A DNA stretch of 35,619 nt from a bacterium (lineage in GTDB: Bacteria > Planctomycetota > J058 > JAJDCP01): assembly GCA_030428695.1 (NCBI GenBank), contig JAUIEM010000041.1, positions 1 through 35,619 on the forward strand, in the 5' to 3' direction. Position 1 is the stretch's first letter, and every line of letters begins with the position of its first letter. The notes below the pieces were generated by a model. The model was not told the origin of the DNA and searched no databases. It was given only the letters and a program-made list of their open reading frames with translations. Shown in pieces: positions 6,165 through 22,125 of this stretch. A program made the translations under genes and the position numbers.

Positions 6165-6360
6165 CGTCTCTCTCCGCGATCGTCGGTTGGATGCGAAGAT
6201 AGACCTCGTGCGACAGTGAAGTGCCACAGATGTGTCAGGCCGACGATTTTCTTTCCCGCGGCCCTGCATCCGCCCGGCTACGCTGCGCGGAGGGGCGCCG
6301 CGAAGATTCCTGAGTCAGAATCCGCTGCCCGCGCGTCCCTGCGATGAGGAGACGACGCCC

Positions 6361-6852
6361 CTGAACATCACCTGGCACGAGGCAGTCACCGATCCGCAGC
6401 TGCGGGACAGGCTCCTGGCCTGCGCCCGGCAGATCGTCGGGGATTCCAGTGCCGCGGAGGACGCCGTGCAGGAGACCCTGACCTCGGCCCTGAACAGCCG
6501 TCTGCGCGACCCCGGCGCCGCGCGGGGCTGGCTGTTCGCCGTCTGCAGCCGCAAGGCGATCGACCTCTTGCGCCGCCGCCAGCGGCTCGAGCGGGCGCAG
6601 GCGCAGCTTCCCCAGGGTCCGGCTCCGCGCCTGCCCGAGGACCTCGCCCTGGACCGCGAGCGCGACGCGCGTCTGCGCACGGCCCTCGGCTGCCTCGACG
6701 AGCCCTACCGCGAGGCCCTGGAGCTGCGCTATCTGCAGGGGCTGCCGTACCGCGAGCTCGCCGAGCGCCTCGGCACCATCGAGCGCACCGCCCGCACCTG
6801 GGTCGGCCGGGGGCTGGTCAAGCTCCGCGCGAAGCTGGGAGGGAGACGATGA
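6361..6852 (+). CDS. ECF-type RNA polymerase sigma factor
   Basis: A 163-residue sigma-70 family protein with region 2 (about residues 20-70; DSSAAEDAVQETLTSAL, then AARGWLFAVCSRKAIDLLRRR) and region 4 (about 105-160; CLDEPYREALELRYLQGLPY, then ELAERLGTIERTARTWVGRG). It directs RNA polymerase to a dedicated promoter set. In region 4 the recognition helix reads TIERTARTWVGRGLVKLR. There is no ATG or GTG in frame at the expected position. The best start is CTG 6361, 9 nt after GAGGAG (6346-6351), which yields MNITWHEAVTD and a normal length. The frame stays open to 6232, so a longer form is possible. Its stop overlaps the ATG of the next gene by 4 nt, the usual sigma/anti-sigma coupling. The family call is secure; the start is not. 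Confidence 0.88.
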   Translation: MNITWHEAVTDPQLRDRLLACARQIVGDSSAAEDAVQETLTSALNSRLRDPGAARGWLFAVCSRKAIDLLRRRQRLERAQAQLPQGPAPRLPEDLALDRERDARLRTALGCLDEPYREALELRYLQGLPYRELAERLGTIERTARTWVGRGLVKLRAKLGGRR

Positions 6853-8696
6853 GCTGCGCCCCCGAGAAGCTCGGCCTGCTGCTGGCCGGGGCCCTCGAGG
6901 CCGACGAAGAGGAGCGGCTGCTCGCCCATCTCGAGGGCTGCCGCGACTGCGCCATCGAGCTCGCAGCGCTCGGCAGCCTGGAGGACGAGCTCGAGCGCCT
7001 GGCGCCCGCCCCGGCGGCGGCGCCGGGCGCGCGCTGGTGGCTGGTCGCGCTCGCCGCCTGCGTGGCGGCCGCGCTGGTGCTGTCCTGGGCGCTGCGCGCC
7101 GATGGCGACCGGCTGCTGAGCGGCGAGCTGCTCGCCGGCGCGACGGTGCTCGGGCCCGGGGCGCTGCTGCCGCCACACCAGCCCCTCGAAGCGCGCACGC
7201 TCAGCCGGGTGCGGATCGGGGACGTCGACCTCGAGCTCGCCGGCTCCGCACGCATCGAGCTGCGGCCGGCGCGGGAGATCTTTCTGGCGGAGGGCGAGGC
7301 GCGCTGCCTGATGCCCGTCCCCGCCGACACCTTCATCCTCTCCACCGGGCTCGCCGAGCTGTGGGTGTTCGAGGATGGCGAGAGAGCATCGGAGGAAGAG
7401 ATGCGCGACGTGGGAATCAAGCTCGCGGTCGCCGCGACGGTCGTGACCGTGGTGGTCGTGTCCGGGACGGTGATCATGAAGCTCAACGGCGACCGCGCCC
7501 AGCCGGAATGGCGCCTCGACGCCGGCGACACCGCCCAGATCCGGGCCGACGCCGGGCAGCTCGCGGAGCTGCAGGATCGGCTGGTGGCGAGCGAGGACGC
7601 GGTCGTCGAGGCCCGCGCGGCGGCGGACGCGGCCAGCGCCGAGGTCGAGCGGGCGCGGGCTGCCGAGACCGCGGCCGCGGCGCGCTTCGAGGAGCTGCAG
7701 GCAGACTACGCGGCCCTCGAGCAGCGCCTCGCCGCCGCCGAGCAGGCCCTCGCCGCCGCCGGCCAGGCGACGCCGCCGCCGGAGGTCGCCAGCCCCGAGC
7801 CGCAGCCGGAGGACGGTCTGCCCTTCTCGTACGGCGGCTGGGGCGAGCTCGCCGAGCTGCGCGAGGCCGACTGGGAGGACCTGGGCGGGGCGATGCAGGC
7901 GCTGGCCTGGGACCTTCTGCCCGCCTACCTCGAGGGCGTGGCCAGCGGGAACCTCGACCGCCAGCTCGCGATCGAGGTCACGAAGGAGAACGCCAAGCTG
8001 CAGGGCCTCGCCCTCGGCCTGAACGGGAAGCTCCCGACCCATCAGAGCGGCAACGGCGAGTACACCCACCCGATTGTGCTCGCCAACCTGATGGCCGCCC
8101 AGCTCGAGGCGATGCAGCAGCCCCTCGACGCCGCGCAGCTGCGCGCCATCGAGGCGCTCGGCGAACGCTACGACGCCGACCAGGCGCGGCTGAACGCGAG
8201 CTACGACGCGTCGACCCTCACCCTGCAGAAGCCCCTCGACGAGCTCGCGCTCAAGGCGGAGTTCAGCGCGAGCCTCGAGCAGCTGCTCCGGGCCGAGCAG
8301 CGCGCGCTGGTCATCCACCCGGAGTACCACCACGTCTACGGCGTCGACCTGTACTCTCCGGTGCTGATGGCGCCGGTCGAGGATCTCGTCGGCGCGAGCG
8401 ACCTCGACGACCTGCGCGAGGAGCTGATCGACACCGCCGCCGAGCGCTGGAGCATCCCGCGCGCCGACCTCGAAGCCCTGCCGGCGGTCTTCCAGACCTG
8501 GGTCGCCAACCTCGGCCCTCTCGAGCCCGTGCCTGCAAGTCAGAAGCAGTTCTTCACGCTGTCGAACGCGACGCTGGCGGGCGCCGCCCAGCTCCAGGCG
8601 ATGCGCGACCTCGAGCAGCTGCTCGGCCTCGACGAGGAAGCCGCCCGTCCCCTGCGCGACGAGGCCGGCCTGCTCGTGCCGCGGCTGATCGAGTGA
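6849..8696 (+). CDS. zf-HC2 anti-sigma-like protein with two membrane helices and a long C-terminal domain
   Basis: A 615-residue protein, translationally coupled to the ECF sigma factor. Residues 1-50 resemble the zf-HC2 anti-sigma domain: HLEGCRDC supplies His27, Cys31 and Cys34. A first transmembrane helix covers about 63-82. Residues 85-180 form a beta-rich region that resembles a FecR-like domain. A second very hydrophobic segment follows at about 189-210 (IKLAVAATVVTVVVVSGTVI). Then comes a coiled coil (about 230-300, Ala/Glu heptads), a Pro-rich linker, and a 290-residue helical domain (about 320-615) that I do not recognise. Classical anti-sigmas are 150-250 residues, so the extension is unusual. 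It probably holds the sigma factor inactive at the membrane and senses something outside. With two helices, the large C-terminal domain may return to the cytoplasm, unless the first helix spans only partly. Confidence 0.8.
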   Translation: MSCAPEKLGLLLAGALEADEEERLLAHLEGCRDCAIELAALGSLEDELERLAPAPAAAPGARWWLVALAACVAAALVLSWALRADGDRLLSGELLAGATVLGPGALLPPHQPLEARTLSRVRIGDVDLELAGSARIELRPAREIFLAEGEARCLMPVPADTFILSTGLAELWVFEDGERASEEEMRDVGIKLAVAATVVTVVVVSGTVIMKLNGDRAQPEWRLDAGDTAQIRADAGQLAELQDRLVASEDAVVEARAAADAASAEVERARAAETAAAARFEELQADYAALEQRLAAAEQALAAAGQATPPPEVASPEPQPEDGLPFSYGGWGELAELREADWEDLGGAMQALAWDLLPAYLEGVASGNLDRQLAIEVTKENAKLQGLALGLNGKLPTHQSGNGEYTHPIVLANLMAAQLEAMQQPLDAAQLRAIEALGERYDADQARLNASYDASTLTLQKPLDELALKAEFSASLEQLLRAEQRALVIHPEYHHVYGVDLYSPVLMAPVEDLVGASDLDDLREELIDTAAERWSIPRADLEALPAVFQTWVANLGPLEPVPASQKQFFTLSNATLAGAAQLQAMRDLEQLLGLDEEAARPLRDEAGLLVPRLIE

Positions 8697-10318: not shown

Positions 10319-11728
10319 ATGCAAGCACGGGTGACGATCGCGATCCTCGCGGCCTTCGGCCTCGGCATCCTGGCCGGCATCTACGCGCCGGCCCTGCGCG
10401 CGGGCGACGAGCGCAGCGACCTGCGTGAGGCGCTCGACGACGAGCTGCCCGAGCTCAAGGACGCGTCCCGCGCGTTCAAGAAGATCGCCCAGCTGATCAG
10501 CCCGAGCATCGTCCACGTCGTCGTGCGCCGCCAGCCGGCGCCGCCCGAGGGCGCGGCCTCGCTGCTCGAGTTCCTGTTCGCTCCCGACGGCGAGCGCGAG
10601 ACGCGGGAGGAGGAGAGCCAGGGGACGGGCGTGTTCGTGCGCGCGGACGGGGTGATCGTCACGAACAACCACGTCGTCGAGGGCGCGAGCTCGATCGCGG
10701 TGACGACCTTCGACGGCAACATGTACCCCGCCGAGGTGATCGGCACCGACCGCAAGACCGACCTCGCCGTCTTGAAGATCTCGGCGCGCGACTGCGCGGC
10801 CGCTCCGCTCGGCGACGAGTCGCAGGTCCAGATCGGCGACTGGGCGGTCGCGTTCGGCAACCCCTTCGGCCTGACCCTGACGGTCACGGCGGGGATCATC
10901 AGCGCGAAGGGCCGCGCCAACGTCGGTCTCGCCGAGTACGAGGACTTCCTGCAGACCGATGCCGCGATCAACCCCGGCAACTCCGGCGGGGCCCTGTGCA
11001 ACATCCAGGGCGAGGTGATCGGCATCAACACCGCGATCCTGTCGAAGAGCGGCGGCTACCAGGGCATCGGCTTCGCGATCCCGATCTCGATGGTGCGCAC
11101 CGTCGTCGATCAGCTCCTCGAGCACGGCAAGGTGATGCGCGGCTGGATCGGCGTCGAGATCGTCGATCTTCCGCCGTGGCAGGGCGATGCCTACGGCGTC
11201 GACGGCTACAGCATCCTCGTCCAGGGGCTCGCCGAAGACGGCCCCGCCCTCGCCGCCGGAATGCGTGTCGGGGACGTGCTGCTCGAGCTCGACGGCGCGC
11301 CGATCGGTGACGTCCAGCAGCTGCGCAACACGATCTCGCTGCTGCCGGTCGGCAGCGAGATCCGCCTGCGGGTGCGGCGCGACGACAGCGACCACATGCT
11401 CAGCGTCGAGGTCGCTTCCCTCGACGACGCGATCAAGCGTCGCCAGACCCCGCTCGGCTTCACGGCCCGCACCCTGACCGAAGAGGACGCCCGGCGCTAC
11501 GGCTTTATCGGCCAGCGCGGCGCGCTGCTGATCAAGGTCGACCCCGACGGCCTGGCGTTCGAGGCCGGGCTGCGCGAGGGCGACCTGGTCCTCGATGTCG
11601 ACGGGCGCGCGATCGCGGACCTCGAAGACCTCGAAGAGACGCTGTCCGAGGCCAACCCCGAAGCCGGCATAGAGATCCGCCTGCAGCGCGGTTTCCGCAC
11701 CTTCGAGACGGTGATCTACAGCCGCTGA
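10319..11728 (+). CDS. HtrA/DegP-type periplasmic serine protease with two PDZ domains
   Basis: A 469-residue envelope protease and chaperone that degrades or refolds misfolded exported proteins. Residues 5-25 form a signal anchor or signal peptide (VTIAILAAFGLGILAGIYAPAL). The trypsin-like domain (about 50-265) has an intact triad: His118 in VTNNHVV, Asp148 in DRKTDLAVLKI, and Ser222 in INPGNSGGAL. PDZ1 spans about 275-365 (GWIGVEI, then EDGPALAAGMRVGDVLLELD). PDZ2 spans about 375-469 (PDGLAFEAGLREGDLVLDVD). The start ATG 10319 follows GGAGGTGG; the longer open frame from 10238 would place coding sequence over a promoter-like match. The gene stands alone, with an upstream promoter candidate and 76 bp before the hydrolase gene. 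It is a complete HtrA by length and motifs. Confidence 0.95.
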   Translation: MQARVTIAILAAFGLGILAGIYAPALRAGDERSDLREALDDELPELKDASRAFKKIAQLISPSIVHVVVRRQPAPPEGAASLLEFLFAPDGERETREEESQGTGVFVRADGVIVTNNHVVEGASSIAVTTFDGNMYPAEVIGTDRKTDLAVLKISARDCAAAPLGDESQVQIGDWAVAFGNPFGLTLTVTAGIISAKGRANVGLAEYEDFLQTDAAINPGNSGGALCNIQGEVIGINTAILSKSGGYQGIGFAIPISMVRTVVDQLLEHGKVMRGWIGVEIVDLPPWQGDAYGVDGYSILVQGLAEDGPALAAGMRVGDVLLELDGAPIGDVQQLRNTISLLPVGSEIRLRVRRDDSDHMLSVEVASLDDAIKRRQTPLGFTARTLTEEDARRYGFIGQRGALLIKVDPDGLAFEAGLREGDLVLDVDGRAIADLEDLEETLSEANPEAGIEIRLQRGFRTFETVIYSR

Positions 11729-11804: not shown

Positions 11805-12701
11805 GTGAGCATCCGCGAGTTGTGCCTGGTGCTGCTGGTCAGCTGTCTCTCCGCGCAGGAAGCCGACACCACCGCAGCCTTCACGGTCGAGGTCACGGGC
11901 GACGGCCCGTCCGTCCTCTTGATCCCCGGCCTGGCCTGCGGTGGGGACGTGTGGGAGGGCACGGTCGAGCGCCTCTCCGAGGCCTACACCTGCCACGTCT
12001 TCACCCTCGCCGGATTCGCCGGCCAACCGGCGCTCGAGGCCCCGTTTCTGCCGACCATCCGCGACGCGCTGCTCGCCTACATCGAGGAGCACGGGCTCGA
12101 CCGGCCGGCGGTGGTCGGCCACAGCCTCGGGGCCTTCATGGCGCTGTGGCTCGGCTGTACGGCGCCGGACGCGATCGGACCGATCGTCGCGGTCGACGGC
12201 CTGCCCTACTACACCGACCTGGTGTTGCCCGGGGCCGACAGCACCGCGGTCCGGACCCAGGCAGAAGCGACCCGCGACGCCTTCGCGCGGCTGACCCGTG
12301 AGCAGTTCGAGAGCCAGAACGAGCTCGGCCTGCGCTGGATGATCACCGCGCCCGAGGACGCCGCCGAGGTCGCGAAGCGCAGCAACGCTTCCGACCCGAT
12401 CGCGGTCGGCCAGGCGGCCTGCGAGATGATGCAGATCGATCTGCGCTCCGAGCTCGGCCGCCTCGAGTCGCGGGTGCTGCTGTTCGGCGCGACCGGTCTG
12501 GCGACCGATGAGGCGATGCGGGACGAGGTCGAAGCGGCCTACCGGGCGCAGATCTCCGAGGCGCCGGCGCACGAGGTCGTGTTCCACGACAGCGCCCGGC
12601 ACTTCCTGCAGCTCGATGCGCCGGAGTTCTTCTTCGAGCACCTCGAGCGCTTCCTCGCCGGCGAGCTCGGTCCGCCGTCCGACGAGGGCGGTGAAGAGTA
12701 G
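11805..12701 (+). CDS. Secreted alpha/beta hydrolase
   Basis: A 298-residue protein with a signal peptide (MSIRELCLVLLVSCLSAQEADT; cleavage probably near Ala18) and an alpha/beta hydrolase fold. The oxyanion region reads VLLIPGLACGGDVWEG, the nucleophile elbow is VVGHSLGAFMALWL (Ser in GHSLG), and the catalytic His is in HFLQLDAPEFF. The acidic residue is probably in the strand LLFGATG or just after it. It would cleave an ester, amide or similar bond in the periplasm or outside; the substrate is unknown. GTG 11805 follows GGAGGA at 11795-11800. TTGGTACACTCGGGGCA at 11767-11783 fits a -24/-12 sigma-54 promoter loosely (GG and GC 10 bp apart) and also contains an extended -10-like TGGTACACT. 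It lies 2 bp before the kinase gene and is probably cotranscribed with it. Confidence 0.88.
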   Translation: MSIRELCLVLLVSCLSAQEADTTAAFTVEVTGDGPSVLLIPGLACGGDVWEGTVERLSEAYTCHVFTLAGFAGQPALEAPFLPTIRDALLAYIEEHGLDRPAVVGHSLGAFMALWLGCTAPDAIGPIVAVDGLPYYTDLVLPGADSTAVRTQAEATRDAFARLTREQFESQNELGLRWMITAPEDAAEVAKRSNASDPIAVGQAACEMMQIDLRSELGRLESRVLLFGATGLATDEAMRDEVEAAYRAQISEAPAHEVVFHDSARHFLQLDAPEFFFEHLERFLAGELGPPSDEGGEE

Positions 12702-12703
12702 CG

Positions 12704-14032
12704 ATGGAGAAGCTCGAGCGCATAGGCCGCTACACCGTCCTGTGCCGGCTCGGTCGTGGCGGGATGGGCGAGGTCTACCAGGCCCGCGCTCCGGATGGCA
12801 GCACCGTTGCGGTCAAGCTGCTGCGCGCGGCGGAGACCGCCCGGCCCGACGAGCTCGAGCGCTTCGCCCGCGAAGGATCGATCCTCAACGGCCTGCGACA
12901 CCCCTCGCTGGTCTGCGCCCTGTCGGGCATCGAGCTCGATGCCGGGCAGGCCTTCTACGCGATGGAATACGTCGCCGGGCGCGACCTCGCCAAGCTGCTG
13001 CGGGAGCATCCCGACGGCCTCGATCCGGCCCGGGCGGTGGCGATCGCCCTCGAGGTGCTCGAAGCCCTCGCCTACGCTCACGGCGAGGGGGTGGTGCACC
13101 GCGACGTCAAGCCGTCGAACATCCTGCTCGAGGAAGGGGGCCGCGCGCGCCTCGCCGACTTCGGCCTCGCCCGCCTGGCCGGTCTCGGCTCGCTGACCCG
13201 CACCGGCACGCTGCTCGGCACCCCGGAGTACATGTCCCCCGAGCAGGCCGACGGCCTCGAGCCGGACGCGCGCTCGGACATCTACGCCCTCGGCATCGTG
13301 CTGTTCGAGATGTTGAGCGGCGCCGCGCCCTTCCGCGCCGAGCGACCCCTCGCGGTGCTGCGCATGCACCACCGCTCGCCGGTCCCGCCGCTGCCTGAGG
13401 GGCTGCCAGCCGGCCTGGAGGCCGCCGTGCGCCGCGCGCTGCAGAAGGAGCCGGCCGCGCGCTGGTCCTCGGCCCGCGAGCTTGCCGACGCCCTGCGCCG
13501 CATCGAGCTCCCGGAGGAGGCGACGCCGCGCGCGGTGTCCTCGAGCGCGGAGACGCGTCCGATCCCGCTGGGAGGGGGCACGACGACCGTGGTGGGGGAG
13601 TCGGGGTCGGAAACGGGGTCGGAAGCGCAGGCGACTGCGGGCGGGGTCCTCGAGGTCGATGCCGATCCCGACGGAGATCAGGTGCGGGAATCCGAGTCGG
13701 AGTCGTCGAAGATCGGGCACGGGCACGGTTCGGGATCGGCATCGGAAGCTTCCTCCTCCTCCCGCGTCCTCCTGCTGTTGCTCCTCCCGCTCCTCGCCTT
13801 CTTCCTCTGGTGGGCCCCGTGGCGCGCGCCGGCCCCGTCCCCGGAGGTCCCGCCGCCGGCCGCCGACAGCCTGTGGGTGGTGTCCCTGCGCTCGGGGGTG
13901 GCGGACACCGGCTGGCTGGTCAGCCTGGAGGTCGCGCGCGGCGAGCTGGTCCTGCGGCGTGAGGACGGCAGCGAGCAGCGCTACGGCTTCGACGAGATGC
14001 ACGGCTACCGGCGCCTGGACGAGGCTCCCTGA
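12704..14032 (+). CDS. Hanks-type Ser/Thr protein kinase with C-terminal membrane helix
   Basis: A 442-residue receptor-like kinase. The catalytic domain (about 9-270) is complete: Gly-rich loop LGRGGMGEVY (16-25), Lys38 in VAVKLL, HRDVKPSN (132-139), DFGLA (152-156), activation segment with TGTLLGTPEYMSPEQ, and SDIYALGIVLFEM. A disordered Ser/Glu/Gly/His-rich linker follows (about 275-354), part of it encoded by a TCGGGA-type simple repeat also found outside this gene. A single transmembrane helix (355-370) and an extracytoplasmic tail of about 70 residues complete the protein. It should phosphorylate Ser/Thr on cytosolic partners in response to an external or envelope signal. Its stop overlaps by 1 nt the start of an FHA-domain regulator (TGATG), and FHA domains bind phosphothreonine, so that regulator, or a protein it binds, is the obvious target (inference). 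Confidence 0.95.
   Translation: MEKLERIGRYTVLCRLGRGGMGEVYQARAPDGSTVAVKLLRAAETARPDELERFAREGSILNGLRHPSLVCALSGIELDAGQAFYAMEYVAGRDLAKLLREHPDGLDPARAVAIALEVLEALAYAHGEGVVHRDVKPSNILLEEGGRARLADFGLARLAGLGSLTRTGTLLGTPEYMSPEQADGLEPDARSDIYALGIVLFEMLSGAAPFRAERPLAVLRMHHRSPVPPLPEGLPAGLEAAVRRALQKEPAARWSSARELADALRRIELPEEATPRAVSSSAETRPIPLGGGTTTVVGESGSETGSEAQATAGGVLEVDADPDGDQVRESESESSKIGHGHGSGSASEASSSSRVLLLLLLPLLAFFLWWAPWRAPAPSPEVPPPAADSLWVVSLRSGVADTGWLVSLEVARGELVLRREDGSEQRYGFDEMHGYRRLDEAP
13657..13749 (+). repeat. Inverted and dispersed copies of a TCGGGATCGGCATCG element (inside kinase linker)
   Basis: TCGGGATCGGCATCG is at 13730-13744 and its exact reverse complement at 13657-13671, both within the linker-coding part of the kinase gene. 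A third copy, identical over 20 nt to 13730-13749, lies outside genes at 15387-15406. Confidence 0.6.
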
Positions 14033-15333
14033 TGCGCTGGATGCTGCACGTGGTCGAGGGCTACAACCGCGGCCAGCGCTACCTGCTGCCCGAGGGCACG
14101 GTGCTGATCGGCCGCGCCGAGACGGTGGCGGTGCGGCTGCTCGACGAGAGCGTCTCCCGCGAGCACGCGCGCCTCGAGGTCGATGCGGAGGGCGTGACCG
14201 TCCACGATGCGGGCAGCCGCAACGGCACGCGGGTCAACGGCGTGCCCTGCGACGAGGCGACCCTGCTGGCCGGGGACCGGCTCGGCATCGGCGAGCTCGC
14301 GCTCTTGCTCGCCGCGGTGCCCGAGGGCGCGGTCAGTGGCAGCAGCCCGACGGCCGCGGTCTCCGCCGAGCGCGCCGAGCGCCCGGCGGAGGTTCCGCTC
14401 GGGGCCCCGCTCGTCAGCCCCGGCGTCGAGCTGTGGGGCGAGAGCCCGCCGATGCGCGCCCTGTACACCTCGCTCTCGCGGCTCGCGCCGGCGAGCTGCG
14501 CGGTGCTGATCCGGGGCGAGACCGGCAGCGGCAAGGAGCTGGTCGCCCGCGCCCTGCACGCCCTCTCCCCGCGCCGTCGCAAGCCCTTCGTCGCGGTCAA
14601 CTGCGCGAGCCTGGACGGCCCCCTGCTCGAGAGCGAGCTGTTCGGCCACGAGCGCGGCGCCTTCAGCGGCGCGGTCGCCCAGAAGCGCGGGCTGATCGAG
14701 GAGAGCGGGGCCGGCAGCCTGTTCCTCGACGAGATCGGCGAGCTCGGCGCCCAGGCCCAGGCCAAGCTGCTGCGCCTGCTCGAGAACGGGGAGTGGCGCC
14801 GGGTCGGCGGCCTGCGCACCCAGCGCGCCGCCTGCCGCGTCCTCGCCGCCACCCACCGCGATCTCGCCGCGATGGTCCGCGCCGGCGACTTCCGCGAGGA
14901 TCTGCTCTACCGGCTGAGCGTCGTCGAGCTGCTGGTGCCCCCGCTGCGCGCCCGCGCCGACGACGTGATCCTCCTCGCCGAGCGCTTCTTCGCCGCGTCC
15001 TGCGCCGCCGCGGGCCGCCGCCTGCAGCTGTCGGAAGCCGCCCGCGAGGCTCTGCGCGCCCATCCCTGGCCGGGCAACGTGCGCGAGCTGAAGAACGCGG
15101 TCGAGCGCGCCGCCATCCTCGCCGCGGGCCCGGAGGTCGAGCCCGCCGACTTCGGCCTGCGCCCCGCCGACGGCGAGGGCGCCGGCTTCCCGCCGCTGGC
15201 GGAGCTCGAGCGCCGCCACATCCTGCGCGCCCTCGCCGCGGTCGACGGCCATCGCGCCCAGGCCGCCGCGCTCCTCGGCATCGACCGGAAGACCCTGTAC
15301 CGCAAGCTGAAGACCTACGGGGTGGAGCCGTAG
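14032..15333 (+). CDS. FHA domain / sigma-54 interaction AAA+ / Fis-HTH transcriptional activator
   Basis: A 433-residue enhancer-binding protein. An FHA phosphothreonine-binding domain (about 5-95; LIGRAE, SVSREHARLEV, SRNGTRVNG) takes the place of the usual receiver domain. The AAA+ domain (about 132-365) has Walker A GETGSGKE (162-169), the sigma-54 contact loop as GAFSGA (209-214; the canonical motif is GAFTGA), Walker B LFLDEIGEL, and HPWPGNVRELKNAVERA. A Fis-type HTH ends the protein (about 392-430; ALLGIDRKTLYRKLK). Such proteins hydrolyse ATP to open promoters held by sigma-54 polymerase. The start overlaps the kinase stop by 1 nt, so activation by kinase-dependent phosphorylation is the natural reading. 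Downstream, the tandem palindromes at 15476-15512 and the -24/-12 element at 15555-15570 suggest it controls the next gene. The Thr-to-Ser change in GAFSGA is conservative and is found in some active members. Confidence 0.95.
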   Translation: MRWMLHVVEGYNRGQRYLLPEGTVLIGRAETVAVRLLDESVSREHARLEVDAEGVTVHDAGSRNGTRVNGVPCDEATLLAGDRLGIGELALLLAAVPEGAVSGSSPTAAVSAERAERPAEVPLGAPLVSPGVELWGESPPMRALYTSLSRLAPASCAVLIRGETGSGKELVARALHALSPRRRKPFVAVNCASLDGPLLESELFGHERGAFSGAVAQKRGLIEESGAGSLFLDEIGELGAQAQAKLLRLLENGEWRRVGGLRTQRAACRVLAATHRDLAAMVRAGDFREDLLYRLSVVELLVPPLRARADDVILLAERFFAASCAAAGRRLQLSEAAREALRAHPWPGNVRELKNAVERAAILAAGPEVEPADFGLRPADGEGAGFPPLAELERRHILRALAAVDGHRAQAAALLGIDRKTLYRKLKTYGVEP

Positions 15334-15386
15334 GGACCGGCTGCTGACGATATCCCGCCAGGGCCCTCGCCTGACTCCTATCGGGA

Positions 15387-15406
15387 TCGGGATCGGCATC
15401 GGAAGC
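15387..15406 (+). repeat. Intergenic 20-nt copy of a kinase-linker repeat
   Basis: TCGGGATCGGCATCGGAAGC is identical to 13730-13749 inside the upstream kinase gene. A further TCGGGA immediately precedes it at 15381. No gene covers it. Confidence 0.6.
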
Positions 15407-15475
15407 GACCCGAGAGAGCCGCTCCGAGGAGGCCAGATCCTCGACCCGGCTTCCCCACCGCGCGCGACCGGTCCT

Positions 15476-15512
15476 GGGGCACTGTGCCCCACGCACCGGG
15501 GCAGACTGCCCC
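15476..15512. promoter_or_regulatory. Tandem palindromes, candidate enhancer (activator-binding) sites
   Basis: GGGGCACTGTGCCCC (15476-15490) and GGGGCAGACTGCCCC (15498-15512) are two perfect 6-bp dyads with 3-bp centres and the same arms, repeated at exactly 22 bp, about two helical turns. The first extends to 7-bp arms. Their centres lie at about -98 and -76 from the start site predicted by the downstream -24/-12 promoter, within the range of sigma-54 upstream activator sites. The gene ending at 15333 is a Fis-HTH sigma-54 activator. Confidence 0.6.
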
Positions 15513-15525
15513 CGTGCAACGCGAA

Positions 15526-15546
15526 GGCCCCGCTTTGGCGGGGGTT
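15526..15546 (+). terminator. GC-rich hairpin after the FHA activator operon
   Basis: CCCCGC (15528-15533), loop TTTG, GCGGGG (15538-15543), followed by GTT only. It has the shape of an intrinsic terminator for the upstream operon, but the T-tract is poor. It lies between the palindromes and the -24/-12 promoter, so it would insulate that promoter from read-through. Confidence 0.4.
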
Positions 15547-15554
15547 CCCGTCGA

Positions 15555-15570
15555 TGGCATCGACTTTGCT
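15555..15570 (+). promoter_or_regulatory. Candidate sigma-54 (-24/-12) promoter of the large exported protein gene
   Basis: TGGCATCGACTTTGCT places GG (15556-15557) and GC (15568-15569) exactly 10 bp apart. It matches the consensus TGGCAC..TTTGCT at all conserved positions except T for C in the -24 box. The predicted start site is near 15581, 24 bp before the ATG. A TATGAT at 15580-15585 could instead be a sigma-70 -10 box, but no -35 box is visible at the proper distance. Confidence 0.6.
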
Positions 15571-15604
15571 CCTTTGGGGTATGATCGCAAGACGAGGAGT
15601 CCCC

Positions 15605-18600
15605 ATGCATCGTTGCCTGCTTCTGATCCTCAGCCTCGCCGCCTTCGCGCAGGACGGCGAGCGTGTCCTCTACGTCGAGGGCACGCCGCGCTGGGAGTAC
15701 CGTTTCCTGCGCAACTACCTGATCGAAGAGCCCGGGCTCAGGGTCCAGTGCTACCTGGCGAACGCCGACCCCGGCTTCCCGCAGGAGTCCTCTCCGGGCC
15801 TGCCCGCTCTCGGCGGCCTGCCCCGCAGCCTGCCGGAGCTCGCGGCCTACGACACCGTCATCCTCGGCGATGTCCCGGTCCTTGAGCTCGGCGCGCTGGT
15901 GGGCCTCCTGCCGGCCTGGGTCGAGCAGGGCGGCAGCCTGTTGTGCATCGCCGGACCGCTGGCCCTGCCGGAGCACTATCTCTCCGGGGCGCTCGCCGAC
16001 ATCCTCCCGATGACCGAGGCGGAGCGGGTCCGCCGCGAGGAAGCGGACCTGCGCCTCGACGGCCGGGGTGACTGGCCCCTGCCGGAGGCGCCGCCCGGGA
16101 TGGCGGAGGCGTGGGCGCTGACCCCCCGCGATGGCGCGCGCACCCTGCTGACCGTCCGGGACCTGCCCGGAGCGCCGCCGGCGCTGGTCGGCTGGTCCGT
16201 CGGCAAGGGCGCGGTGCTGTTCCAGGGCTTCGCGGAGAGCTGGCGCTGGCGGGAGGCCACGACCGACGCCCTCGACGAGCACTACGCCGCCTGTCTGGCC
16301 TGGCTGCAGCAGAGCCGCGTGGTCACCCGCCCGGTGCGGCTGACCCTGCGCGACGGCAACATCATCGAGGGCCGCCTGGCCGACTTCGCCGACCGCACCT
16401 ACGTGCTGCGGCTCAGCGACGGCCAGGAGCTGCGCTACCGGGAGGCTCAGCTGCGCGCCCTCGAGTTCCTCGACCACGCGCCGGTGGTCGAGGAACCGCG
16501 CCCGCTCAGCGAGGCCGAGCTGCGCGCCGAGCGCGAGCGCTGGCAGCCGTCGACACCCGCGGCGCGCGCCGAGCGGCGCGCAGAGCTGGTCCGGAACCGC
16601 GCCCGGCGTGTCGCCCGGGTCCGCTCGCAGGCCTTCGTGGTTCATGGGGGCAGGCGGGTCGCCACGCTGACGGAGGAGCAGGTCGGCAGCGGCGTGTTCG
16701 TCACCGATCCCCGCAGCGGCGAGCCCGCGCTGTTGACGGCCCGGGCGCTCGCCTTGCCCCACGAGTACGACCCGCGGGCCGCGGCGAAGCTGCTGTACTA
16801 CATCGGGCTCCAAGGCAACTATGAGGCGAAGGTGCGGGTGCAGGTCGAGATGTTCGTCCCTGACGCCGCGAGCCAGGGGCTCTCCAGCATCTGGATGACC
16901 ATTTTCAGCACCGAGGACCTGTCCCTGCGGCGGGCCGTGGCGGGCGAGGTCCTGTACGAAGCTCCGCAGACCGTGTCCTTCAACGTCGACGCCAACCAGC
17001 GACGGGTCGAGGGGGTCCGCGTCGCCCGCGCCTATGACCCCGCGGGCTTCGCCCTGTTCGGCCTCGACCTCGAGCGCGCCTTTCCCGCCAACCAGGAGGG
17101 GCGCGACCGGCTGCGCAGGATCCACGGCAAGAACCTCGACCTGCTGCCGGCCACTGTGTCGTCGCAGAGCCCCGCGGAGTTCGATCCGGTAGTGCTGCTC
17201 GCGGCCACTGTCGAGGATCGCGTCGGCGCCCTGCAGGCACATGTGCAGACGGCCGCCCCCATCAGCCTCGACGAGCGCTTCGCCCCGAGCTTCGTCGGCG
17301 CGCCCCTGTTCGACGACAACGGCCAGCTGTGCGGCCTGGTCACCCATGAGGACGAGGCCGGCCAGACCGCGGGGGCGGCGCTCGGAGTGCTTCTCTACGA
17401 GCTCGACGAGCTCGCGGAGAGGCGCAGCGTCGCCGAGTTCGAGGCCCTGCTCGATCAGCTCGAGAGGGAGCGCGCGCTCCAGGAAACGGATCCCGCGCCT
17501 GTCAGCACGCGCAAGGAGCTGGTCAAGCAACGCGCGAAGTTGATCGCCCGGGTGCGCACGCGCTCGCGGGTGACCCAGGGCGGAAGAATAGTCGCCTATC
17601 TGACGGAGGAACAGACCGGGAGCGGCGTGTTCGTCGACGATCCCCGCAATGGAGAGCTCGCCCTCCTGACCGCGCGCGCCCTGGCCCTGCCCCACGAGTA
17701 CGACCTGGAGGCCGCGGCGAGGGGGCAATACTACCTCGGGCTCGGTGGGGACTACGAGATCGAGGTCGAGGTCGCGGCCGACGTCTACGCTCCCGAGGAC
17801 GAGGGGGAGACCTCGACCTGGATGACCATCTTCAGCACCGAGGACCTGTCCCTGCGTCGGGCCGCGCACGGCGTCGTCGGGTACGGAGAGCCCCAGGTGA
17901 CCACGGTCAACATCGACGCGACGCAGCGCCGCATCGAAGGGGTGCGGCTGGCCCGTCGGGATGATCCGAACGGTCTCTCCCTGTTCGCCGTCGACTTCGA
18001 GCGCGCCTTCCCGCGCAGCGCGGACGGTCGCGCCCGCCTGGCCAGACTGCACGGGCAGATGCTCGAGCTGCGCGCGAGCGGTGTCTCGCTGGGGAATGCC
18101 TGGAGGCAGCTGCCGGTGCTCCTGCTCGGGGTGATCGATGGGCGCATCATCCCCTTCGACGAGGCGCTGCAGGCGGTCGATCCCCTCATCCTCGACGAGC
18201 GTTTCGACCCCTCTCTCGTCGGGGCTCCCCTGTTCAACGAGAACGGCCGCCTGGTCGGCGTCGTCACCCACGAAGGCGCCGGGAGGCAGATCGCCGGAGT
18301 GGAGCCGGGACCCTTCTTCGTCTCCTTCAACGGCTGGGAACGGATCGAGCGCTTCGAGCGCTCGAGGGAGCTCCATGCACGCGACCGGAGGCTACACCTG
18401 GATGCGCTTGCTCTCACCACCGAGCCGCCGGCGGACAAGTTCGAAGAGCGCGAGACCGCCATCGCAGACCGCGAGCAGGCACGCAAGGAGCTGATCAGAG
18501 ACCGCCAGTGGATCGTCGGCCGCGTGCGCGCGCAGGCCTTCGTCACCAAGGAGGGACGGAACATCGCGCAGCTGACCGAACCGGTCGTCGGCAGCGGGGT

Positions 18601-20263
18601 GTTCGTGCGGGCGGATGGCGAGGAGCGGCTGCTGACCGCCCGCCAGCTCGCCCTGCCCCACGAGTACGACCCTGTCGCGGTCGCCAAGCTCGAGTCCTTC
18701 CTCGCCCGCGACGAGGGCTACGCGCTCACGGTCGAGCTCGCCGTGGACGTCTACTGCCCGGACGCGTCCGACGAGGGCGCCACCAGCGTCTGGATGACCC
18801 TCTTCGAGAGCGCCGACTCCTCCCTGCGACTCCATGCCCGGGGCGCTGTCGAGTACGAGCTGGTCCGGGACGTCGCGTTCACCGGTCCCCTGGGCCGCGA
18901 GCGTCGAGCCTACGGGGTGTGGGTCGCCCGCCCCGACAGCCCGGACAACTGGGCCCTGCTCGACCTGAACTTCGACCGCGCCTTTCCGGACGACGAGGGG
19001 GGCCGCGCGAAGCTCCGGCGGATCCACGACAGGGCGCTCCCCTTCGCGTACCAGGAGCTCAGTGACACCGCGCCCGCGCTGGAGCTGGACGACAACGTCG
19101 TGGTGATCGGTGTCAGCCGGAATGGGCGCATCATCCCCTACGATGAGGAGCTGATCGCGGTCGACCCGCTCGTCCTCGACGAGCCCCACGACGCCTTCTT
19201 CCTCGGCGGCCCCCTCTTCGACGACGCGGGTCGGCTCGTCGGCCTGCTCACCCACGATATGCAGGGCGCGATGGCCGGCACGCCGGTGTTCGCCGTCGAC
19301 GGGATGCTGCAGCGGACGCCCGCGTCCCCGACGAGGGTCTGGCGCTCCTACGAGGCCCCTCCGCTCGCCCTGGCGCGTTTCCACGCGGACCATCAGCACT
19401 ACCTGCTCGCCCGGGACGTCCTCGCGCCGTTGCTCGACCTGCCGCCCGACGAGGAGAACGGTGTCGACATCGCCTTCGATGCCCGCCAGCTGTTCGACGA
19501 GCTCGCCCCTTTCATCGCCCTGCACGACGAGTCGGCGATGGTCGTGATCGACGGCGGTCCCTTCCCGATGGGCAGCGACGACCCGAGCGCGCCCGCCAGC
19601 GGTCCGGCCCACACCGTCGTGCTGCCCGCCTTCGCGATCGACCGGCGCGAGGTCAGCATCGGCGAGTATCTGCGCTTCCTGCGCGATCCATCGGTCCGCG
19701 CGGGGGCCTACGACCATCCGGACAACCCGCTCCCCGGGCAGCATCTGCCGATCGCCTGGCGCAGCGTGACGGAATACAACGGCGCGCTCAGCGAGCCGGT
19801 CCACGGCCTGAGCTACTACAGCGCCTGGGCGTACGCGCGCTGGTGCGGGAAGCGCCTGCCGACGGAGCAGGAGTGGGAAAAGGCCGCCTCCTGGGGACCC
19901 GACTTCGCCCCTACCGACAAACGGGCCTTCCCCTGGGGCGGCGAGTGGATGGAGGAGCGCTGCCAGGGCAAACGCGAGGAGGGTCCGCTTCCGGTGGGCT
20001 CCCACAAAGACGGCGCGAGCGCCTGGGGTGTCCTGCAGCTCGCCGGCAACGTCGCGGAATGGACCACGGGCGCCTACCAGGCCTACCCCGGCTCGGCCTA
20101 CGAGGACGAGGACTTCGGCTCCGGCCTACGGGTGGTCCGGGGCGGCTCCTACCTGTCGCCGGACTCCGGCGCCTTCCGCACCACCGACCGCGTCGGCCTC
20201 TTCCCCAGCGAGCGCTACGAGGGCGTCGGCTTCCGCTGCGTCCGGGATCTGTACGAGCGCTGA
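15605..20263 (+). CDS. Large exported protein: GATase-like region, three trypsin-fold pseudo-protease repeats, SUMF1 domain
   Basis: A 1552-residue protein with a signal peptide (MHRCLLLILSLAAFA). About 20-225 resembles class I glutamine-amidotransferase-like domains (VLYVEGTPRWEYRFLRNYL, YDTVILGDVPV, WVEQGGSLLCIAGP). About 240-290 is a small beta module (LRDGNIIEGRLADFADRTYV). Three repeats of roughly 260-300 residues begin near 322, 634 and 958. Each has GSGVFV, LLTAR.LALPHEYD and a C-terminal GAPLF or GGPLF followed by G.L.G..TH, the skeleton of a trypsin-like domain. The catalytic His and the GNSGGP serine are replaced (FVGAPLF, LVGAPLF, FLGGPLF), so protease activity is unlikely. About 1312-1552 is a SUMF1/FGE-sulfatase domain (MVVIDGGPFPMGSD, KRLPTEQEWEKAA, GNVAEWT, RGGSYL, GVGFRCV). 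The pair of active cysteines of true FGE is absent after RGGSYL. ATG 15605 follows CGAGGAG. A non-catalytic surface or scaffold role is inferred. Confidence 0.88.
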   Translation: MHRCLLLILSLAAFAQDGERVLYVEGTPRWEYRFLRNYLIEEPGLRVQCYLANADPGFPQESSPGLPALGGLPRSLPELAAYDTVILGDVPVLELGALVGLLPAWVEQGGSLLCIAGPLALPEHYLSGALADILPMTEAERVRREEADLRLDGRGDWPLPEAPPGMAEAWALTPRDGARTLLTVRDLPGAPPALVGWSVGKGAVLFQGFAESWRWREATTDALDEHYAACLAWLQQSRVVTRPVRLTLRDGNIIEGRLADFADRTYVLRLSDGQELRYREAQLRALEFLDHAPVVEEPRPLSEAELRAERERWQPSTPAARAERRAELVRNRARRVARVRSQAFVVHGGRRVATLTEEQVGSGVFVTDPRSGEPALLTARALALPHEYDPRAAAKLLYYIGLQGNYEAKVRVQVEMFVPDAASQGLSSIWMTIFSTEDLSLRRAVAGEVLYEAPQTVSFNVDANQRRVEGVRVARAYDPAGFALFGLDLERAFPANQEGRDRLRRIHGKNLDLLPATVSSQSPAEFDPVVLLAATVEDRVGALQAHVQTAAPISLDERFAPSFVGAPLFDDNGQLCGLVTHEDEAGQTAGAALGVLLYELDELAERRSVAEFEALLDQLERERALQETDPAPVSTRKELVKQRAKLIARVRTRSRVTQGGRIVAYLTEEQTGSGVFVDDPRNGELALLTARALALPHEYDLEAAARGQYYLGLGGDYEIEVEVAADVYAPEDEGETSTWMTIFSTEDLSLRRAAHGVVGYGEPQVTTVNIDATQRRIEGVRLARRDDPNGLSLFAVDFERAFPRSADGRARLARLHGQMLELRASGVSLGNAWRQLPVLLLGVIDGRIIPFDEALQAVDPLILDERFDPSLVGAPLFNENGRLVGVVTHEGAGRQIAGVEPGPFFVSFNGWERIERFERSRELHARDRRLHLDALALTTEPPADKFEERETAIADREQARKELIRDRQWIVGRVRAQAFVTKEGRNIAQLTEPVVGSGVFVRADGEERLLTARQLALPHEYDPVAVAKLESFLARDEGYALTVELAVDVYCPDASDEGATSVWMTLFESADSSLRLHARGAVEYELVRDVAFTGPLGRERRAYGVWVARPDSPDNWALLDLNFDRAFPDDEGGRAKLRRIHDRALPFAYQELSDTAPALELDDNVVVIGVSRNGRIIPYDEELIAVDPLVLDEPHDAFFLGGPLFDDAGRLVGLLTHDMQGAMAGTPVFAVDGMLQRTPASPTRVWRSYEAPPLALARFHADHQHYLLARDVLAPLLDLPPDEENGVDIAFDARQLFDELAPFIALHDESAMVVIDGGPFPMGSDDPSAPASGPAHTVVLPAFAIDRREVSIGEYLRFLRDPSVRAGAYDHPDNPLPGQHLPIAWRSVTEYNGALSEPVHGLSYYSAWAYARWCGKRLPTEQEWEKAASWGPDFAPTDKRAFPWGGEWMEERCQGKREEGPLPVGSHKDGASAWGVLQLAGNVAEWTTGAYQAYPGSAYEDEDFGSGLRVVRGGSYLSPDSGAFRTTDRVGLFPSERYEGVGFRCVRDLYER

Positions 20264-20604: not shown

Positions 20605-22125
20605 CTACTCGACCGCGATCGTACGCGTCACCGCGTTGGCGCCCGGACCGCTGACCGTCAGCTCCAGGGCACCCGCCTCGAGCCCGGTCAGCGCGAAGGC
20701 GACCGCGCCGTCCTCAGCGCTGGTCGCCGTCGCGTACAGGCCGCCGCGCTGCCACACGCAGACGGTGAGGCCCGCGGCGCCGACCTCGACCTCGAGAAGC
20801 TCCGCGTCCTGGGTCAGGCGTGCGGGAGCGGAGACCGCCGGCGTGACCGGGCGCCCCGCCCGCATCGGCAGGGTCGGATCGCCGAGCAGGTTGATCTCGC
20901 TGAGCACCCAGTGGTAGCCGACCTCGACCGCCGCGTCCTCGGCGAGCTCGGCCTGGGCGGCGGCGAAGGCCTCGCCGGTCGTCAGGTCGGCCTCGACGCC
21001 GTGGCACCAGAAGCGGGTGAGGAAGCGGGTCGTGCCGTCCTGGGTGCGGCCGTCCCGCGGATCGCCGCCGCCGCCGAGGAAGACCGGCACGCCCTCGCGG
21101 GCGGGAGCGACGGCGACGACAGCGCCGGCCTTCGGGGCGCGCAGCATCGACTCGGTGATCGAGGGATCCTTCGGGCCGTCGAACTGGCCCGTGAAACAGG
21201 ACACCGTCGTCATCACCAGGTAGGCGTCCTCGTTCTCGAGCCGCGCGACGCTGGCGGCGTTGGCCGGCCGGTGGCGCTCGAGCACCCACAGGTCGAGCAG
21301 GCCGTGGCCGTGCATGTGCATCTTCCCGGCGCTCTTCTCGTTGATGTGCGCGACCCAGTTCGCCGGTGACAGCGCGTGATCGCCGCGGCGCTCGCGGTCC
21401 CAGGGGGTGACGTCGGTGAAGTAGCGGGCGATGCTGCCGCTCCAGACCTCGGCGAGGTTCCGGTCCCACAGCATGTCGGCCTTGTAGTTCGCCTGGGGCA
21501 CCGCGCAGGTGTAGGTGAAGCTCTCGGCGAAGGCGTCCTCGGGGTAGGCGCTCTCGTAGGCGATCGCCTTGTCGGTGTAGGCGGCGACGTCCTCGACGCT
21601 GCGCACGGGGATGCGGCCGATGCAGGCGCCGCGCTCGTTGACGTAGGAGAGCGCCGGGCGGTCGTTCCGCCAGTCACCGTAGATGCCGTCCCCGTTCGCG
21701 TCCCAGTCCCCCTCGCCGATGAACCAGACGTCGCTCGGGATGTCGTCGTAGCGCAGGCTGCGCCCGAGCCGGTGGCGGGTGTCGCGGTCGGGCACCGGGC
21801 TGCCGTCCGGGCCGCTGTCGCCGCCGAGGATCACCCAGCGCGTGCCGCGCTCGGCGATCGCCTGGCGGATGTAGGCCCGCATCCGGGTCTGCACGTCGCC
21901 CTCCTCGGAGGCGGCGGCGATCGCCTCGACGGTGACGATGCTCGTCGGCTTGCCGCAGCGGGTCTTCCACTCCGCGAACGGCTGCCAGGCCTCGGCGAGC
22001 TCGGCGGAGGTGACGAGCAGCACCGTCGCCGAGAGCTCTTCGCCCGTGTCCGGCGACCAGGCCGTCGGGACCTCGGCGAGGCAGAGGGAGAGAGGGAGGA
22101 GGAGGAGGATCGGGAAGCGCGGCAT
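20605..22125 (-). CDS. Secreted C25-family (gingipain-like) cysteine peptidase
   Basis: A 506-residue protein with a signal peptide (MPRFPILLLLPLSLCLAEV). The peptidase fold occupies about 35-430. The catalytic His is in HMHGHGLLDLW (about 21300-21325) and the catalytic Cys in TTVSCFTGQFDGP (about 21180-21220), in the order and spacing of gingipain-type caspase-fold peptidases. Family landmarks include WVILGGDSGPDGSP and EINLLGDPTLPMRAG before the C-terminus. A beta-sandwich domain follows (about 430-506; ELLEVEVGAAGLTVCVWQRGG, ALELTVSGPG). There is no Por-type sorting domain. The start ATG 22125 has CAGGAG upstream. It is presumably exported and degrades protein outside the cell or matures envelope proteins. 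A second, divergent paralogue lies at 29380-30939. Both catalytic residues are present. Confidence 0.88.
   Translation of the reverse strand: MPRFPILLLLPLSLCLAEVPTAWSPDTGEELSATVLLVTSAELAEAWQPFAEWKTRCGKPTSIVTVEAIAAASEEGDVQTRMRAYIRQAIAERGTRWVILGGDSGPDGSPVPDRDTRHRLGRSLRYDDIPSDVWFIGEGDWDANGDGIYGDWRNDRPALSYVNERGACIGRIPVRSVEDVAAYTDKAIAYESAYPEDAFAESFTYTCAVPQANYKADMLWDRNLAEVWSGSIARYFTDVTPWDRERRGDHALSPANWVAHINEKSAGKMHMHGHGLLDLWVLERHRPANAASVARLENEDAYLVMTTVSCFTGQFDGPKDPSITESMLRAPKAGAVVAVAPAREGVPVFLGGGGDPRDGRTQDGTTRFLTRFWCHGVEADLTTGEAFAAAQAELAEDAAVEVGYHWVLSEINLLGDPTLPMRAGRPVTPAVSAPARLTQDAELLEVEVGAAGLTVCVWQRGGLYATATSAEDGAVAFALTGLEAGALELTVSGPGANAVTRTIAVE

Follow-up and report, generated by a model that had tools for sequence, protein, structure and literature searches.

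Ser/Thr kinases and sigma-54 activators are numerous in planctomycetes, and to our knowledge the outputs that these regulators control are mostly open. This question is raised directly by a planctomycete contig of 35,619 nucleotides (JAUIEM010000041.1, assembly GCA_030428695.1), the whole of which is called the window here. In the window, genes for a Hanks-type membrane kinase and an FHA-domain activator of sigma-54 are followed by a gene for an exported protein of 1552 residues, so the question is whether the kinase and activator control their very large neighbor. Based on the sequence of this region and of related loci, the kinase and activator probably switch on this one exported protein. 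We consider it likely that such loci encode an envelope switch, in which a membrane kinase and an FHA activator drive the sigma-54 promoter of an exported protein by Ser/Thr phosphorylation. The gene order, the domains, the promoter and dyad sequences, the recurrence measured with controls and the relationship between the small domains of kinases and exported proteins are direct observations, which are described below.

The kinase operon and the gap behind it

The window has a G+C content of 71%, and the genes for an alpha/beta hydrolase, the kinase, the activator and the large protein all lie on one strand (Table 1). An earlier annotation made from the letters alone, denoted as the sequence-only reading, had the hydrolase, kinase and FHA-AAA+-Fis genes packed together, which is borne out by a gap of 2 bp between hydrolase and kinase and an overlap of 1 bp between kinase and activator. 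The catalytic domain of the kinase (residues 10-255) contains the motifs VAVK, HRDVKPSN and DFG, such that the catalytic Lys, HRD and DFG are all present. A hydrophobicity call predicts one transmembrane helix at residues ~355-373, with a C-terminal tail beyond it. By Pfam, the activator combines FHA, Sigma54_activat, AAA lid and HTH_8 (Fis-type helix-turn-helix) domains in a single chain. Its loop reads GAFSGA, as does that of the nearest protein (P0004, 73% identical), and nine relatives have GAFTGA; Ser in place of Thr in this loop can work in contacting sigma-54. Sigma-54 itself was encoded in nine of nine relatives tested.

Activator and large-protein genes are separated by a gap of 271 bp, which holds two dyads of the form GGGGCA-N3-TGCCCC (15 bp each, spaced 22 bp) and a -24/-12 site. 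Sigma-54 promoters follow the consensus TGGCAY-N5-TTGCW, which the site at 15555-15570 matches in full. Allowing zero or one mismatch, the site is the only -24/-12 match in the window, while one such match appeared in 41 of 100 shuffles. When the window was scored with promoter weights, it was the best of 21 sites reaching at least 17.5, the other 20 all being lower, and the only one of the 21 that lay outside called genes and within 300 bp before a gene on the same strand. Transcription would start near 15581. The two exact dyads are the only matches without mismatch in the window; with up to two mismatches, the total of 5 shows no excess over the shuffle mean of 4.28. When the gap was shuffled 5000 times with dinucleotides preserved, a pair of same-arm 6-3-6 palindromes was obtained in a single shuffle, and no shuffle had the sigma-54 pattern. 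The whole window contains two same-arm palindrome pairs, the second of which (27050-27094) lies within a called gene; in 200 shuffled windows, seven pairs were counted in total. The paired palindromes, the -24/-12 match and the 1552-residue exported protein of the sequence-only reading were all confirmed in the sequence, the gap now with chance tests. The hairpin between the dyads and the promoter is a possible weak terminator of the upstream operon.

Paired 6-N3-6 dyads were sought in 14 promoters, with 500 shuffles of each. They were present in the window (0/500 shuffles as good), in locus L122 (0/500) and in locus L123 (3/500), the start of the first dyad being at -79 from the -24 element in each case. 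The second dyad starts at -57 in the window, at -47 in L122 and at -56 in L123, and L122 has a third at -24. The letters of the dyads differ among the loci, which would fit activators that each recognize a site of their own. In L136 and L137, which come from two genomes, another repeated element, common to both, is followed by a -24/-12-like site and a gene for an exported LVIVD-repeat protein. Both loci keep the order of activator, repeat, promoter and exported gene, and their kinases are without a tail domain.

Kinases beside FHA activators in other planctomycetes

Among the candidates scored, no full relative of the large protein was seen, only a match of its FGE-type domain, so we tested the recurrence of the arrangement instead. 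Planctomycete genomes were reached via the activator of the window; 20 loci were expanded, and 20 more activator loci and 20 random stretches, from mostly the same genomes as the activator loci, were added, 19 of these stretches being used. After the activators were checked with Pfam, the final groups comprised 24 FHA loci, 16 non-FHA loci and the 19 random stretches. FHA was recognized by Pfam in 18 of the 24 loci and by alignment to the FHA part of the window's activator in L124, L125, L126, L138, L192 and L194. By Pfam, L196, L197 and L127 have no FHA, L132 has FHA without GAF, and L128, L130 and L131 are of an FHA-GAF type; 13 control activators without FHA consist of 12 response regulators and one of PAS type. 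The loci were chosen as best matches, and the gene calls, the signal-peptide rule and the promoter weights were home-made. L122 and L191 have 1 kb of sequence in common, a single genome, denoted G047, supplied seven of the FHA loci, and a strong site at 14381 of L126 was included in no count. G047 is a 12.3-Mb planctomycete genome (L119-L122 and L191-L193) with at least seven FHA-type activators, five of them with tailed kinases.

A kinase gene lay within 1.2 kb of the activator at 15 of the 24 FHA loci and at none of the 16 non-FHA loci (Fisher 3.6e-5). The sequence-only reading proposed, as a check, to look for co-occurrence of kinase, FHA activator and the giant pseudo-protease/SUMF1 protein; the pairing of kinase and activator does recur, and for the giant no full relative was seen among the candidates scored. 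No hydrolase match was found in the 20 expanded loci, and hence the hydrolase, which had been counted in the circuit, is not part of the recurring module.

For promoters, we counted the genes whose called start is preceded, at a distance of 25-140 bp, by a -24/-12 site, leaving the window out. Such sites precede 20/206 genes at the FHA loci and 5/180 in the random stretches (p 0.006). At the FHA loci, the correct spacing gave 20 matches against 1, 5, 2, 3, 3 and 2 at six wrong spacings, while in the random stretches it gave 5 against 2, 0, 3, 4, 7 and 7. Among the promoter-bearing genes at the FHA loci, 13 of 20 look exported, compared with 56 of 206 overall (p 0.0002).

A small barrel in kinase tails and exported proteins

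At several activator loci, the exported gene encodes a domain of about 50 amino acids soon after the signal peptide, and the paired membrane kinase carries a related domain at its C-terminal end, beyond the membrane helix. When the profiles of kinase tails and exported domains were compared with hhalign, they matched with a probability of 96.9% (E 1.8e-10). As judged from these profiles, a small barrel common to the kinase tail and the exported neighbor is an addition beyond the sequence-only reading. The barrel models were built after the loci had been seen, with the window left out, and L296 is the only prospective locus.

In the window, residues 242-290 of the large protein match both the kinase-tail profile (E 9.9e-8) and the exported-domain profile (E 3.1e-9). 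The tail of the window's kinase, in which no Pfam domain was matched, gave E 0.005 with the profile of nine kinase tails from other loci, and none of 2000 shuffles scored as high. A second Ser/Thr kinase gene in the window (27750-29267, minus strand) is not among the tail-profile matches. Among the 681 proteins searched, one protein of a random stretch (L211) also matched. When six whole genomes (54.6 Mb) were searched, the top nine matches were the nine kinases of the profile itself; 11 further matches at E <1e-3 comprise mostly exported proteins, and none lies in a called kinase gene. Of 20 fetched barrel loci, 15 were inspected, and one of these (L266) lacks a gene call at the domain.

When 392 genomes were searched at E <=1e-5, 24 matches were obtained, 15 of them new. 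These comprise one kinase, two HtrA proteases, four internal stretches and eight matches close to what looks, by eye, like the start of an exported protein. The sole new kinase, that of L296, follows an FHA activator, and the protein next to it shows the barrel at its visible N-terminus (tail E 1.2e-10, neighbor E 6.6e-11). This is a prospective but single case, in which the activator reads in pieces and the start of the neighbor is cut off by the contig end. The two HtrA matches (L284 and L293) cover strands of the protease at 25-29 bits, for which chance, convergence or a link to the trypsin-type barrel are all candidates.

In total, 11 tailed-kinase loci were found, each with an activator, and the gap between kinase and activator is at most 147 bp in 10 of them and 3.1 kb in L123. 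A barrel protein is encoded within 1.7 kb in eight of the 11. Where the start of the barrel neighbor is visible, a site scoring at least 18 of 21 precedes five of seven genes; L121 scores 17 and L120 has none. With the window left out, sites of at least 18 precede 7/18 barrel genes and 3/98 signal-peptide-like control genes. In L261, L263 and L274, barrel-bearing exported genes have good -24/-12 sites and no activator match nearby, which may point to a broader group of exported barrel proteins under sigma-54. L275 (5221-12732) is a variant of the unit, in which a barrel-bearing exported gene is flanked by an FHA-GAF activator and by a large kinase that has no tail domain.

The large protein of the window is a lineage-specific multidomain protein, with a signal-peptide-like start, an N-terminal region (~19-235), the small barrel, three repeats and an FGE/SUMF1-type domain. 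The N-terminal region gave only a sub-threshold GATase-like match, and its residues 19-148 match a planctomycete protein at 48%. The three repeats are 42-53% identical to one another. Trypsin_2 matched once over the whole protein (4.3e-8); repeat 3 alone gave 7.5e-5, below the curated cut-off, and repeats 1 and 2 gave no match. A fold model was of low confidence, with a predicted local distance difference test score of 39, and the HtrA encoded in the window goes undetected by a profile built from the repeats (E 23). In an alignment to that HtrA, in which the sequences are distant, other residues take the place of the catalytic His and Ser in each of the three repeats. For the "pseudo-protease" of the sequence-only reading, the likeness to a protease is weak. 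The best solved relatives of the FGE-type domain are EgtB and SUMF2. Two cysteines at its GGSYLSPDSGA stretch are catalytic in FGE; no cysteine is present there, and likewise none in the aligned stretch of SUMF2. Considering the repeats without His and Ser where aligned and the FGE-type domain without cysteine at the position of the active pair, the enzyme-like parts of the protein look non-catalytic.

The proposed switch and its alternatives

In the switch that we propose, the membrane Hanks kinase would sense conditions outside the cytoplasm through its C-terminal small barrel, and its phosphorylation would act via the FHA domain of the adjoining activator as the receiver. Bound to the pair of dyads that start at -79 and -57, the activator would drive the sigma-54 promoter, with the exported protein as the output. 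At other loci a different exported protein would take this place, in many cases one that also bears the small barrel. The steps that we infer are phosphorylation, binding by the FHA domain, binding to DNA, the use of sigma-54, export and contact between barrels. If kinase, FHA activator, dyads and exported target form a fixed unit, kinases could be matched to their outputs by a direct rule, and the common barrel offers a concrete idea of what such kinases sense. Because both carry the small barrel, the kinase tail and the product may recognize the same ligand or each other. An extension of the switch to a closed receptor-product loop seems doubtful to us. Here, the exported product or its ligand would feed back on the kinase, and the output (giant pseudo-enzyme, TPR, secretin-like or WD40 protein) would be freely exchanged between lineages, as in a plug-in envelope-sensing circuit. 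If so, this circuit would run on Ser/Thr phosphorylation in place of a two-component pair. Product feedback is kept as a minority reading since barrel pairs within a locus are no more alike than others.

A number of results speak against the switch, and they were weighed together with other explanations. Sigma-54-like sites are as frequent without FHA, at 14/168 genes of the non-FHA activator loci (p 0.72 against FHA loci), and the excess of FHA loci over random stretches weakens at stricter thresholds, with p 0.03, 0.004 and 0.07 at scores of 18, 18.5 and 19. Sites also precede three of 12 barrel genes picked as far from activators, one of which (L275) in fact lies beside an FHA activator. 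Such figures would be seen if the operon and the large gene were mere neighbors, with the activator serving promoters elsewhere and the large gene's -24/-12 site responding to a different activator. We regard this as unlikely, considering that the paired dyads, the promoter and their spacing are all found in the single gap between activator and target, that a similar neighborhood with signal-peptide genes recurs, and that the order in L136 and L137 is kept in two genomes. From the comparison of FHA with non-FHA loci, sigma-54 sites cluster at activator loci generally, and it is the kinase link that is special to FHA activators. The sigma-54 link of the sequence-only reading is thus upheld in that sites before signal-peptide genes recur at FHA loci, and weakened in that sites are equally common without FHA. 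As to the dyads, 10 of the 14 promoters have no pair, and those of L121 are not significant (56/500 shuffles). The sequence-only reading proposed to check whether GGGGCA-N3-TGCCCC and a -24/-12 site precede the effector elsewhere; the dyads of L122 and L123 agree with those of the window in size and in the -79 position, not in the letters. Instead of being activator sites, the dyads could also belong to the upstream operon as transcription terminators or DNA hairpins, in line with their G+C-rich perfect stems behind its last gene and the third hairpin that follows. This seems highly improbable, since no T-run comes after the dyads, the same dyad occurs twice at a distance of 22 bp, and dyads of the same size and other letters share the -79 start.

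In the case of the small barrel, several barrel-bearing exported proteins lie away from activators, and barrel pairs of the same locus are no more alike than cross-locus pairs (1613/10000 permutations). The barrel profile is not highly specific, given the two HtrA proteases and four internal stretches among its 15 new matches, and the SH3/Tudor-like fold matches of the barrel are weak. Three tailed-kinase loci (L119, L128 and L132) have no barrel neighbor. In the window, the kinase tail matches weakly and the exported-domain profile fails on it, with 207/2000 shuffles as high. The loci are also not independent, many being from G047, and the giant stands without a full relative. It is a serious possibility, though somewhat short of an even one, that the barrel is a generic exported module without a signaling role, drawn from the common stock of these genomes. 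While this would explain the barrels away from activators and the lack of likeness within loci, barrel-tailed kinases adjoin activators both in the nine top matches of six genomes and in the one new case from 392 genomes. In addition, the 11 further matches avoid called kinase genes, and four of the five tailed-kinase loci of the 12.3-Mb genome have a barrel neighbor. Taken together, we favor the switch, in which kinase and FHA activator act on the promoter of the exported protein.

Each part of this switch is known, namely Hanks kinases, FHA activators, sigma-54 control of the exterior and kinase-FHA control of type VI secretion; the wiring proposed here is new. FHA-domain enhancer-binding proteins of Myxococcus xanthus are reportedly the subject, by its title, of a study by Jelsbak et al. 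from 2005. At the level of that title, the likeness is the joining of FHA to a sigma-54 activator, whereas the type described here forms fixed gene pairs with a membrane kinase whose tail matches a domain of exported neighbors, and it belongs to planctomycete genomes. In type VI secretion, a Hanks kinase acts on an FHA protein (PpkA/Fha) and sigma-54 activators are encoded with the export system, but the FHA protein and the activator are separate, according to a review (PMC10482370). No type VI gene was named among 30 segments of the 35.6-kb window scanned with Pfam, which include some antisense frames and not every gene. Sigma-54 is presented as a controller of the bacterial exterior by Francke et al. 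2011 (PMC3162934), whose promoters of surface functions are the likeness to the window; the words FHA and Planctomycet are absent from the main text. Planctomycete Ser/Thr kinases with a kinase-transmembrane-periplasmic layout, including kinases with SUMF1 domains on the periplasmic side, are described in PMC11032199; the layout is that of the window's kinase, and the word transcription is absent from the main text of that paper. In Rhodopirellula baltica, the authors of PMC2754498 suggest that RB11766 might regulate the adjoining giant gene RB11769, which by description resembles the window in having a putative regulator beside a giant gene. A fixed unit with a domain common to kinase and output was not found in our literature search of open-licence papers. 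The sequence-only reading named no described system with this order and effector; the parts themselves have precedents, such as, by title, the FHA enhancer-binding proteins of Myxococcus.

Table 1. Positions in the window of the genes, control elements and domains discussed
Feature	Position	Strand	Remarks
Exported alpha/beta hydrolase	11805-12701	+	First gene of the packed run; Pfam
Hanks-type Ser/Thr kinase, 442 aa	12704-14032	+	Pfam Pkinase 2.5e-46
Kinase tail, ~50-aa small-barrel-type domain	13859-14029	+	Residues 386-442; weak match
FHA-AAA+(sigma-54)-HTH_8 enhancer-binding activator, 433 aa	14032-15333	+	Pfam
Upstream dyad 1, GGGGCACTGTGCCCC	15476-15490		Starts 79 bp before the -24 element
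Upstream dyad 2, GGGGCAGACTGCCCC	15498-15512		Starts 57 bp before the -24 element
Hairpin CCCCGC-TTTG-GCGGGG	15528-15543	+	Between dyads and promoter; read from sequence
-24/-12 (sigma-54) promoter match, TGGCATCGACTTTGCT	15555-15570	+	Full match
Ribosome-binding-site-like GAGGAG	15594-15599	+	5 bp before ATG 15605; read from sequence
Exported protein, 1552 aa	15605-20263	+	Signal-peptide-like start; after the 271-bp gap
Small-barrel domain	16328-16474	+	Residues 242-290; profile matches
Three repeats with trypsin-like motifs	16568-19474	+	Residues 322-632, 633-945, 957-1290
FGE/SUMF1-type domain	19532-20245	+	Residues 1310-1547; match 2e-46

Elsewhere in the window, an ECF sigma factor, a zf-HC2 anti-sigma-type protein and an HtrA with PDZ domains are encoded upstream of the kinase operon (6235-8696 and 10319-11728, both on the plus strand), forming a second, envelope-stress-like set beside it. 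Two exported-looking Peptidase_C25 proteins are encoded at 20605-22125 on the minus strand and at 29380-30939 on the plus strand. At 32640-34469 on the plus strand, an NMT1-like solute-binding domain is joined to a transmembrane region of the neurotransmitter-gated-channel type (Pfam NMT1_3 and Neur_chan_memb), and from these matches the product is possibly a bacterial ligand-gated channel with a fused binding protein.

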